Origin: Sphingorhabdus sp. EL138
GTDB taxonomy: Bacteria > Pseudomonadota > Alphaproteobacteria > Sphingomonadales > Sphingomonadaceae
Assembly (NCBI RefSeq): GCF_945890115.1
Contig: NZ_CAMDCK010000015.1
Coordinates: 1 to 64,000, forward strand
Length of the DNA: 64,000 bases
Direction of reading: 5' to 3'
Both the position numbers and the translations under genes were made by a program. This document shows positions 21,989 through 53,418 of this stretch, piece by piece. The notes beneath the pieces were generated by a model, which made no database searches, was not told the origin of the DNA, and saw nothing but the letters and a program-made list of their open reading frames with translations. Positions within the stretch are counted from its first letter, which is position 1. Every line of letters begins with the position of its first letter.

Positions 21989-22074
21989 CCGCACCCCTGT
22001 CACCGTGAACTTGTTTTGGCATGACGCGCCGTGAGGGTTTCCCTTTTTGGCTAGGCTCGTTATGGCACCAATCC

Positions 22075-24906
22075 ATGACTATCGACAAGACTTTCGACCC
22101 CGCCGCGATTGAGGCGAAATGGTATGCGCATTGGGAAACCACGGGCGCATTCCGCCCCGATCGCCCCCATGCCGAGCCTTATACAATCGTGAACCCGCCG
22201 CCCAATGTGACGGGCAGCTTGCACATCGGCCATGCGCTCGACAACACCCTGCAGGATATCCTCATTCGCCATGCGCGTTTGCAGGGCAAGGATGCCTTAT
22301 GGGTCGTCGGCACGGACCATGCGGGCATTGCGACACAGATGGTCGTCGAACGTCAGCTCAATGCCCAAGGGCAGAAACGCACCGATTTCACCCGCGACGC
22401 ATTTGTCGCCAAGGTGTGGGAATGGAAGGCGGAAAGCGGCGGCGAGATTACCGGCCAGTTGCGCCGCCTTGGCTGCTCAATGGATTGGGAGAATGAACGC
22501 TTCACCATGGATGAAGGCTTTTCAAAGGCCGTCATCAAGGTGTTTGTGGATCTCTATAACCAAGGGCTGCTCTACCGCGACAAGCGCCTCGTCAACTGGG
22601 ACCCCGGCCTGAAAACCGCGATCTCGGATCTTGAGGTCGAAACGCGCGAGATTAACGGCAAATTCTGGCATTTCAAATATCCGTTGGAAGACGGCAGCGG
22701 TTTCATAAGCGTGGCCACCACGCGCCCGGAAACGATGCTGGCCGACATGGCGGTCGCGGTGAACCCGTCGGATGCACGCTATGCACATCTTGTCGGCAAA
22801 AATGTTCGCTTGCCGATCACGGGCCGTTTGATCCCGATTGTCACCGACGAACATGCCGACCCCGAATTGGGATCGGGTGCTGTAAAAATCACACCGGGAC
22901 ATGATTTTAACGACTTTGAGGTTGGCAAGCGCGCTGGTTTCAAGGCGAGCGAGATGTTCAACATGCTCGATGGCGAAGGCCGCGTCGTGCAAACCGCCGA
23001 TGGGCTTATTCCCGCAGAATATATCGGGCAATATCGCTTTGGCATCGAAGGCGAGCCGACCAACGCGCGCAAGATGGTGGTCGCGGCGATGGACGCCTTG
23101 GGCTTGCTTGAAAAGGTCGAAGACCGCGTCATCCAAACCCCCTTTGGCGACCGTTCAGGCCAAGTGATTGAGCCTTGGTTGACCGACCAATGGTATGTCG
23201 ATGCGCAAACGCTCGCCAAGCCAGCCATCGACGCGGCCCGCAAAGGCAAGGCCAATGGCGGTTTCGACATTGTGCCCAAGTCTTGGGAGAAAACCTATTT
23301 CAACTGGATGGAGAATATCCAGCCTTGGTGCGTGTCGCGGCAGCTGTGGTGGGGGCATCAGATACCGGCGTGGTTTGCCGCCGATGGCACATGCTATGTC
23401 GCCGAAACCGAAGAGGGCGCACAGGCGCTTGCGGGCGCAGGCATCGAGCTCACGCGCGACCACGACGTGCTCGACACTTGGTTCTCGTCCGCGCTTTGGC
23501 CGTTTGGAACTTTGGGTTGGCCGGATGCTGTATCCTCTCCATCGACTTGCGATGGGGAGGTGGCAGCCGAAGCGCCAGCTTCGGATGACGGAGGGGCCTT
23601 CGACGTTGCAGTCCCCTCCACCACCGCTACGCGGCGGTCCCCCTCCCCATCGCAAGTCGATGGGAAGGAAAAGAGCCTCCTCAACCGCCATTACCCCAAT
23701 GACGTGCTGATTTCCGGCTTTGACATATTGTTTTTCTGGGATGCACGGATGGCGATGCAAGGTATCCACTTCATGAAAGAGGTGCCTTGGAAAACGCTCT
23801 ATCTGCACGGCCTTGTCCGTGCGGCGGATGGCAGCAAAATGTCGAAGTCAAAGGGCAATACGGTCGACCCGTTGGGCCTGATTGACCAATATGGCGCAGA
23901 TGCCTTGCGTTTCTTCATGGCGGCGATGGAAAGCCAGGGCCGTGATATCAAAATGGATGAAAGCCGCGTTGCAGGCTATCGTAACTTTGCAACCAAGCTG
24001 TGGAACGCCGCACGCTTTGCGCAATCCAACGGCATCGGTGGATCGCACAGCGTGCACGCGCCAAAGGCCGAATTGGCGGTCAACCGCTGGATCATTGGCG
24101 AAGTTGTCAGCACAGTTGAAAAATTGAACAAAGCGTTTGCCGAATATCGTTTCGACGGCATGGCGGATGTGTTGTATCACATGGTGTTCGACCAGTTTTG
24201 TGACTGGTATCTCGAACTGATCAAGCCAGCGTTCATCGACGGCGAAAAAGGCGAAATGGATGCGGAGTCCAAAATCGTCGCTGGCTGGGCACTCGACCAG
24301 ATTTTGGTGATGCTCCACCCGTTCATGCCGTTCATTACCGAAGAATTATGGCACGCTTTGTCCGATGCAGATCATCCTCGTGGCTATGATATCATCCACG
24401 CCCAATGGCCCGAGCCCAACGCCACAGTTGATGCAGAGGCAGTTGCCGAAATCAATTGGGTCATCGACACTATCAGCAAAACCCGTTCGTTCAAGGCAGA
24501 GTTGAACATAGCGCCGGGCACGCGCCTGACCGCCAATATAGCTGGCCCACAGGCCGCCACGATTGCCATAATCGAGCGCCAAGGGGCGGCTTTGTCACGG
24601 CTCGGCCGCATTGACGATTTTGTCTATGCGCCCGTTGAAACCAATAATGTCGCACAGATCGTTGTGGGCGACGACACCATCGTTTTCGCGCTTGATGGCG
24701 TCATCGACCTCGACGCAGAACGCAGCCGGATCAGCAAAGCCATTGAGGCTGCCACTAAAGAGCGTGACGCGCTTGCCGGCCGTCTGTCGAATGCGGCATT
24801 TGTGGAAAAGGCCAAGCCCGATGCCGTGGACAAAGCGCGCGCTGACCATGCCGAAAAAACTGCGGAGGCCGAGCGGCTAACTGCGGCGCTAAAGCGGTTG
24901 GGGTGA
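22075..24906 (+). CDS. valS: Valyl-tRNA synthetase with an in-frame repeat insertion
   Basis: The class I synthetase that charges tRNA-Val. HIGH motif in [15 protein letters not shown] in [10 protein letters not shown], the editing (CP1) domain from about residue 200, and a C-terminal coiled coil rich in Lys/Glu/Ala are all present. The 943-residue length is close to normal but includes roughly 46 extra residues at 487-532, between the family-typical FGTLGWPDA and [13 protein letters not shown]. Those residues come from a palindromic repeat (23533-23669) and are Ser/Pro/Ala-rich. Because the reading frame continues perfectly, the enzyme is presumably functional. ATG 22075 is used because it begins the conserved N-terminus; the earlier ATG at 22021 lies in repeat-like sequence. 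Confidence 0.95.
23533..23669 (+). repeat. Palindromic element inserted in frame within valS
   Basis: The arms are 28 bases (23533-23560 and 23642-23669), inverted, with two mismatches. Inside are further hairpins (CCGAAGC-CAGC-TTCGG, CCGCTACGCGG). The element has no stop in the valS frame and adds about 46 codons. Similar CCATCGACTTGCGATGGG palindromes are, to my recollection, common between genes in sphingomonads; here it lies inside an essential gene. Confidence 0.88.
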
Positions 24907-24930: not shown

Positions 24931-25042
24931 TTTGTCATTCCCGCGAAAGCGGGAATCTATCGCCTGCGCGCGTGTTCATCCTTTCGGGGAGTTCACAAGA
25001 AGCGGCGGCCCCATGGATTCCCGCTTTCGCGGGAATGACAAA
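24931..25042. repeat. Short element with perfect 27-bp terminal inverted repeats
   Basis: Arms 24931-24957 and 25016-25042 are perfect inverted copies, each itself palindromic (CCCGCGAAAGCGGG). The 58-base middle carries no gene. It lies between valS and the MATE gene, could act as a terminator, and is related to the copy at 53286-53395. Confidence 0.85.
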
Positions 25043-53262: not shown

Positions 53263-53285
53263 GCCTCAACCAACAGCATAGCCCT

Positions 53286-53395
53286 TGTCATTCCCGCGAA
53301 AGCGAGAATCCATGACCTGTTGTCTGTGCCTACGACAACATTATCGACTTTATTCGGATAAGATAGGCCATGGATCCCCGCTTTCGCGGGGATGA
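53286..53395. repeat. Inverted-repeat element between the helicase and purH genes
   Basis: The same family as 24931-25042: two roughly 28-base arms (TCATTCCCGCGAAAGCGAGAA and its diverged inverse) around a 55-base middle. Placed between convergent genes, it can form a hairpin on either transcript and may serve as a terminator. Confidence 0.75.
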
Positions 53396-53418
53396 AAAGC
53401 TTTAGCTTAGATCGCCGA

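Follow-up and report, generated by a model that had tools for sequence, protein, structure and literature searches.

We found an in-frame palindromic repeat in valS, the gene encoding valine--tRNA ligase (ValRS), in a 64-kb window of a Sphingomonadaceae genome. Here the window means the whole stretch of DNA that was analysed, G000 is the genome of the window, L101 is its valS locus, and the other G and L labels denote comparison genomes and loci. The element is very probably a non-autonomous dispersed palindromic repeat that was inserted in frame in valS and survives where a disordered loop of the protein tolerates repeats. The loop that it occupies is enlarged in 31 of 127 Sphingomonadaceae ValRS genes, that of the window included, and in our sample this enlargement is confined to Sphingomonadaceae.

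The element in valS and its copies in the genome

The window ValRS scores 1163.8 bits against the profile NF004349 (cut-off 704) and 967 bits against TIGR00422 (cut-off 612.1), and the best matching stretch of both profiles stops at residue 485, where the insert starts. An alternative start, an in-frame ATG upstream at 22021, would give a protein of 961 aa. A TIGR00422 search of G000 returned a single match at E <= 1e-150, and in a whole-protein ValRS search of the same genome the other match had only 29% identity, the level of another synthetase. Named loci with the most similar ValRS include Sphingorhabdus, which suggests a Sphingorhabdus-like genome.

Table 1. Features of valS and of the palindromic element in the window.
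Feature	Position	Strand	Remarks
valS, valine--tRNA ligase, 943 aa	22075..24903	+	curated ValRS profile matches
In-frame palindromic repeat element, group S1	23533..23669	+	137 bp, ValRS residues 487-532
Left arm of palindrome	23533..23563	+	self-folding possible: CCTCTCCATCG-ACTTG-CGATGGGGAGG
Left arm pattern TCCTCCCC..GGGGAGG	within 23533..23563	+	alignment of ten copies
Inner hairpin 1, CCGAAGC-GCCA-GCTTCGG	23567..23584	+	flanked by TGGCAG and TGACGG; RNA fold
Inner stem GGAGGGG / CCCCTCC	23590..23619	+	variable 16-nt centre; fold and copy alignment
Inner hairpin 2, ACCACCGC..GCGGCGGT	23620..23638	+	fold and copy alignment
Right arm of palindrome	23639..23669	+	inverted-repeat analysis

The palindrome described by the initial annotation is present, with its length and position as given in Table 1. 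It begins 9 nt inside the loop between the GWP and VLISGFD segments, and its reading frame is that of valS and free of stops, in agreement with the in-frame insert that had been claimed. The two arms are 31 nt each, 90% complementary and separated by a spacer of 75 nt. Inverted arms had been described correctly, but not their length of 28 bases, since the arms contain mismatches, with no perfect pairing longer than 22 nt found. The RNA fold of 23525-23680 has a free energy of -97.6 kcal/mol, compared to a mean of -58.0 (sd 4.25) for shuffled sequences (z -9.3), and none of 200 dinucleotide-preserving shuffles folded as well. When the 64-kb window was scanned for inverted repeats (seed 10, at most 150 nt between arms), the element was one of three that scored at least 20. 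At the gathering score the element has no Rfam match, and a tRNA is the only match across the window; a known Rfam RNA was thus ruled out.

Two TGTCATTCCCGCGAAAGCGGGAATC units stand head to head directly 3' of the valS stop (24931-25042; 27-nt arms), in the gap that separates valS from a MATE transporter gene, and this pair resembles printed CGTC REP dimers. A second pair of this type, TGTCATTCCCGCGAAAGCG..GGGGATGA, with 35-nt arms containing mismatches, is found at 53284-53399.

The AlphaFold model of the window ValRS (55 aligned sequences) has a mean pLDDT of 87.6 and a pTM of 0.83. Residues 485-530 are the only segment of at least three residues under pLDDT 50; the model thus predicts that the insert forms a disordered loop and leaves the fold intact, in line with the tolerated surface loop suggested earlier. 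The nearest solved structure is 1gax, the ValRS of T. thermophilus. Sequence alignment places the insert between residues 472 and 476 of 1gax, in the catalytic domain, between the DTWFSS motif and a ten-residue segment.

The initial annotation had proposed a search for further copies, within genes as well. We found matches to the element at 11 other places in the 2.31-Mb G000 (12 with the valS copy), four of them full-length and seven partial. The copies are mostly intergenic as judged by ORF context, valS and a cysteine desulfurase gene alone having been checked against family profiles. The desulfurase gene (L007 1191-2333; G000 C8:27503-28645) carries an in-frame copy of the valS repeat that replaces some 20 residues found in relatives; it adjoins a second desulfurase-like gene, and its matches to its families lie below the curated cut-offs. 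This copy reads NILPIDLRW.. and the ValRS copy SSPSTCDGE.., indicating that the repeat is used in another frame in the desulfurase. Across the genus, 5 of 24 loci have a palindrome in the cysteine desulfurase loop, and three different ones occur there (G000/G040, G021/G027 and G023).

Ten aligned S1 copies, from G000 and from the ValRS inserts of other genomes, have one common build. The first half consists of TCCTCCCC-x-GGGGAGG and TGGCAG-hairpin-TGACGGAGGGG, followed by a variable centre, and the second half of CCCCTCCACC-hairpin-GGTCCCCCTCCCC-x'-GGGGAGGA. For 10 of the 37 consensus pairs, both sides are changed with pairing kept in at least one copy, and two-sided changes are seen in the stem of inner hairpin 1 (alignment columns 39-42 with 55-58). 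With its strong inverted repeat and several genome copies, the element is a dispersed palindromic repeat. Element matches at E <= 1e-8 are present in 17 of 45 genus genomes, G000 included (8 in G027 and 14 in G040), and are absent at this threshold from G039, G044, G026 and G033, which are among the closest relatives by ValRS. From the copy number and this patchiness we infer that the repeat is mobile. A gene for a RAYT-type transposase (PF01797) is present in 13 of 59 family genomes; G000 has no PF01797 match, and RAYT-driven mobility in the present genome was therefore rejected.

Recurrent inserts in one ValRS loop

In most sphingomonads examined, the GWP-to-VLISGFD loop has 13 or 14 residues (for example, DQNTMLDRHYPND). 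The statement that GWPDA and HYPND are contiguous in the family was therefore mistaken, as relatives have 13-14 aa between GWP and VLISGFD. The family rate is based on an even draw of 129 Sphingomonadaceae genomes, 127 of which gave a ValRS match (90 genera); G128 and G135 gave none at the threshold. Two of the 127 loci come from the genus of the window, namely the window's own and that of G042. Loops that the script could not read, in ten class loci and two family loci, were read by eye. The two family loci are L201, whose insert was not folded and makes the 31st enlarged loop, and L233, with 14 aa. Among the 125 family loops read by script, 30 have at least 20 aa (23-63 aa); 22 of these fold with z <= -3 and 27 with z <= -2, compared to none of the 95 shorter loops at z <= -3. 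The three enlarged loops above z -2 (L167, L181 and L200) resemble remnants or copies with weak pairing, and L167, L181 and L205 are short remnant-like loops. An old insert may have left its scar in the 18-aa loop of close relatives (DDAGADSQTM..).

Outside the family, an even draw of 66 genomes of the class yielded 63 loci, three genomes having no match at the threshold. L388 and L389 encode a divergent ValRS type without the loop, and L390 repeats the family locus L147. The loop is 13-14 aa long in all 60 outside genes that have it, 52 of them read by script and 8 aligned and read by eye. The insert is thus lineage-specific, as had been supposed: the other ValRS proteins examined either lack the segment or carry mostly palindromic inserts at this place. 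An alignment with the same segment in distant ValRS proteins but no palindrome, which would have spoken against this, was looked for and not found. Inserts of the same kind occur at the same ValRS site in the single-contig genomes G129, G132, G066 and G141, and assembly error is therefore unlikely as a general cause of the inserts.

We also used the 80 loci most similar to the insert-bearing query, for which the search patterns included part of the insert. They contribute to insert folding, open-frame counts, 11-mer grouping and synonymous counts; since they were selected and ranked by likeness to an insert-bearing query, all rates come from the even draws. Inserts of at least 15 aa from the genus, family and best-80 loci were folded by position, with identical ones counted once (at reference positions 343-350, inserts of at least 25 aa). 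At 483-491, the 47 inserts have a mean z of -5.8, and 39 reach z <= -3. The 47 inserts at 430-465 have a mean z of -0.7, with 2 at z <= -3, and the 36 elsewhere in ValRS a mean of 0.0, with 1 at z <= -3. An ordinary indel as the source of the loop insert was rejected on account of these means. A strict hairpin scan of family ValRS gave 24 hairpins in 20 of 127 genes, confined to three loops: on a 907-aa reference, 2 are at 452-453, 16 at 483-487 and 6 at 673-678. The same scan was positive in 4 of 46 genus loci, in which some genomes are represented twice, and in 3 of 63 class loci, namely L390, which is from the family, and two AT-rich matches taken as chance. Two palindromic inserts each, in the catalytic-domain loop and in the loop near 673-678, are seen in L144, L186, L238, L239 and L102.

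The inserts are diverse. By shared 11-mers, which are not a full repeat annotation, 52 loops of at least 20 aa (best-80 loci included) fall into 9 components at the loosest threshold and 16 at the strictest, and four groups with several members are found at the two looser thresholds. We named these S1, the window type (peptide ..DGEVAA..), S2 (..PSPLRGEG../..PLPLAGGAGGG..), S3 (PFVSSEVE..STSLDTNG) and S4 (VRAEPVE..STSSGR). The insert of L139 (RHSELVSES..KHVQDDE) stands apart from S1-S4. Even the window and its sister G027 (L102) have different inserts; both belong to S1, and their arms and peptides differ.

A FastTree phylogeny was built from 165 ValRS rows with the loop columns removed, leaving out L131 (a duplicate of L101), three identical rows, and L124, L201, L233 and L270 (no parsed loop). 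An insert is here a loop of at least 20 aa, as in 36 rows, including a few without a clear palindrome (for example, L181 and L260). Loop state requires 27 changes on this tree, of which 22 are forced by starred branches; gains and losses are not distinguished in these counts. Shuffled labels require 32.9 changes on average, and 1 of 500 shuffles was as low as the observed 27. Thus, the inserts are somewhat clustered and part of them are inherited.

The nine S1 elements in ValRS range in length from 108 to 141 nt, with all three remainders modulo 3, and start 2-11 nt past GWP in phases 0 and 2, the flanks making up the frame. These flanks sum to 30-46 nt, compared to 39 nt for an empty 13-codon loop, and show no constant excess. 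In L102 and L161 they amount to 39 nt, exactly as for insertion without loss or duplication. In 44 inserts (best-80 loci included), a mean of 3.7 of 6 frames are open, the used frame counted, compared to 2.5 in shuffled sequence; leaving out the frame in use, about 2.7 of 5 are open compared to 2.1 expected.

Other genes and alternative explanations

The reading that we favour would work as follows. Small palindromic repeats are presumably copied around the genome and insert often, and copies in essential genes would be kept only where a long flexible loop does not disturb the protein. The frame may be kept by the repeat together with small indels at its flanks, and GC-rich repeats, which have somewhat more open frames than their shuffles, would thereby survive more easily. 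Translation of the valS copy would add about 46 residues, as a disordered loop, to an enzyme that presumably stays active. The GWP-(13 aa)-VLISGFD loop of Sphingomonadaceae ValRS would be a tolerant place of this kind. Different repeats have entered it many times, with an effect that may be neutral, and some copies have probably decayed into shorter remnants.

Strict hairpins are also found in other proteins. In TruB, 8 of 29 genes carry in-frame palindromes (L428, L429, L433, L434, L436, L437, L443 and L447), seven at 156-158 and one at 170; one of the eight has 14-bp arms. TruB may recur as a target across orders, since passages of PMC3733652 name it in R. conorii too. The IleRS sample comprised 29 genomes, 4 of them without a match at the threshold, and 4 of the 25 genes have hairpins, of which three lie past PQWF, at 473-476, and one lies at 344. 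The idea that IleRS is hit in a loop homologous to that of ValRS was rejected, because the inserts lie after PQWF and at about 344 rather than in the DVWFDSG loop. None of 29 LeuRS genes has a strict hairpin, and the only one in 28 AlaS genes, with 14-bp arms and unchanged protein length, was taken as chance. A tentative and rather doubtful extension is that the loops in ValRS, TruB, IleRS (after PQWF) and cysteine desulfurase are shared landing pads of Sphingomonadaceae, which would attract palindromes of different families beyond protein tolerance and supply disordered segments to essential translation enzymes.

Tolerance alone may not explain the concentration of inserts at the ValRS loop. 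Outside the family the loop is not obviously tolerant of indels, since it stays at 13-14 aa in 60 of 60 genes. Alternatively, the copying machinery might favour a DNA site or feature near the GWP codons, so that targeting matters more than tolerance. This is consistent with 16 of the 24 strict hairpins in the 127 family ValRS genes lying at one loop, and it keeps some weight because loop length is fixed outside the family and the 47 inserts at 430-465 are rarely palindromic (just 2 at z <= -3). However, the nine S1 starts are spread across 2-11 nt, at least four groups without common 11-mers occupy the site, and recurrently entered loops exist in TruB, IleRS and cysteine desulfurase as well. 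We thus consider such a site preference unlikely.

Another explanation is that the insert is useful, its peptide or its strong mRNA hairpin having been selected for adjusting ValRS activity or expression. The hairpin is indeed very strong, and the orthologous inserts L028/L029, from two Sphingomonas genomes, keep their peptide despite 4 synonymous changes (0 non-synonymous), which hints weakly at constraint on the peptide in that lineage. On the other hand, the orthologous pair L211/L266 has 7 non-synonymous and 2 synonymous changes, and sequence, repeat group and length vary between related genomes. The insert is also predicted to be disordered, and the remnant-like short loops of L167, L181 and L205 exist alongside it. 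A useful part is therefore quite improbable.

A large hairpin within an essential gene could also be an intervening sequence, removed or bypassed at the RNA or ribosome level and absent from the protein. We regard this as very improbable: the frame is open through the site in 127 of 127 family genes, which a removed element would not need, and no Rfam family matches the element at the gathering score. Finally, sphingomonad coding DNA is GC-rich, but an ordinary lineage-specific protein extension that looks palindromic by chance has a negligible probability in view of a z of -9.3 against dinucleotide-preserving shuffles, the dispersed copies in the genome, and mean z values of -0.7 or 0.0 for other ValRS inserts.

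Relation to known repeats and significance

The favoured explanation, a dispersed repeat inserted in frame, has its closest counterpart in the Rickettsia palindromic elements (RPE), reportedly described by Ogata et al. in 2000 and 2002. These elements are about 150 bp long, with several families per genome; they are in-frame palindromes in conserved genes (PMC10969869 and PMC2229807), and one of them, RPE-1, interrupts TruB in R. conorii (PMC3733652). The element studied here is alike in its in-frame insertion in conserved genes, namely valS and cysteine desulfurase, a likeness of mode. The comparison with RPE made in the initial annotation is thus apt as regards the way of working. RPE belong to Rickettsiales, whereas here different repeats enter one loop of one gene across Sphingomonadaceae.

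Going by their abbreviated names, S. wittichii, S. chlorophenolicum, S. alaskensis, E. litoralis and N. aromaticivorans are presumably sphingomonads. All five are named as hosts of CGTC REPs in passages of Di Nocera et al. 2013, which deals with CGTC- and GTAG-tagged REPs and describes the former as mostly alphaproteobacterial (PMC3733652). The same passages report REPs that lie inside genes, both in those for tRNA synthetases (X. oryzae, E. litoralis, printed 'lithoralis', and S. alaskensis) and in that for TruB (S. maltophilia, E. litoralis and S. alaskensis), and different REPs at about one site in recB of two Xanthomonas species (PMC3733652). They also state that some REP dimers sit inside longer palindromes, and that a CGTC REP is a unit of 20-40 bp with a CGTC tag, a stem of 8-9 bp, a loop of 4-5 and a CCA-like tail (PMC3733652). 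The window element differs in length, with 137 bp (108-141 nt for the nine S1 elements in ValRS) instead of 20-40 bp, and in its modular build of TCCTCCCC..GGGGAGG and TGGCAG..TGACGG. On the minus strand, its inner hairpin 1 has CGTCAT before it and CTGCCACC after it, but the stems and first pairs vary between copies. It differs from GTAG REPs and REPtrons in that the RAYT gene (Y1_Tnp, PF01797) was not found in G000.

MITEs and other small mobile sequences are short, dispersed inverted-repeat elements that also form in-frame fusions, according to parts of PMC2229807 and PMC10969869. The window element shares their terminal inverted repeats, in the form of its 90% complementary 31-nt arms. The flanks of the nine S1 copies in ValRS show no constant excess of the kind that a target duplication would leave.

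In-frame repeats in sphingomonad synthetases are already known, as passages of PMC3733652 list intragenic REPs there. The earlier remark that this repeat is not known to be described in a synthetase of this group has to be read with these listed REPs in mind. In the open-licence literature searched, we found no account of different repeats entering one ValRS loop again and again across the family; the synthetase and the site of the cases in PMC3733652 stand in its supplement.

One loop of an essential enzyme thus shows more than 20 state changes among 165 genes, with different repeats, and constitutes a natural landing pad for repeat DNA within that enzyme. With it one can test directly how selfish DNA adds segments to proteins, what the catalytic domain of a synthetase tolerates, and whether repeats choose their sites or merely survive there. 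It is also a candidate site for tag insertion in ValRS engineering. Sphingomonadaceae are mostly free-living, whereas Rickettsia are obligate intracellular bacteria. A phenomenon known mainly from Rickettsia hence becomes a natural experiment in mostly free-living bacteria.
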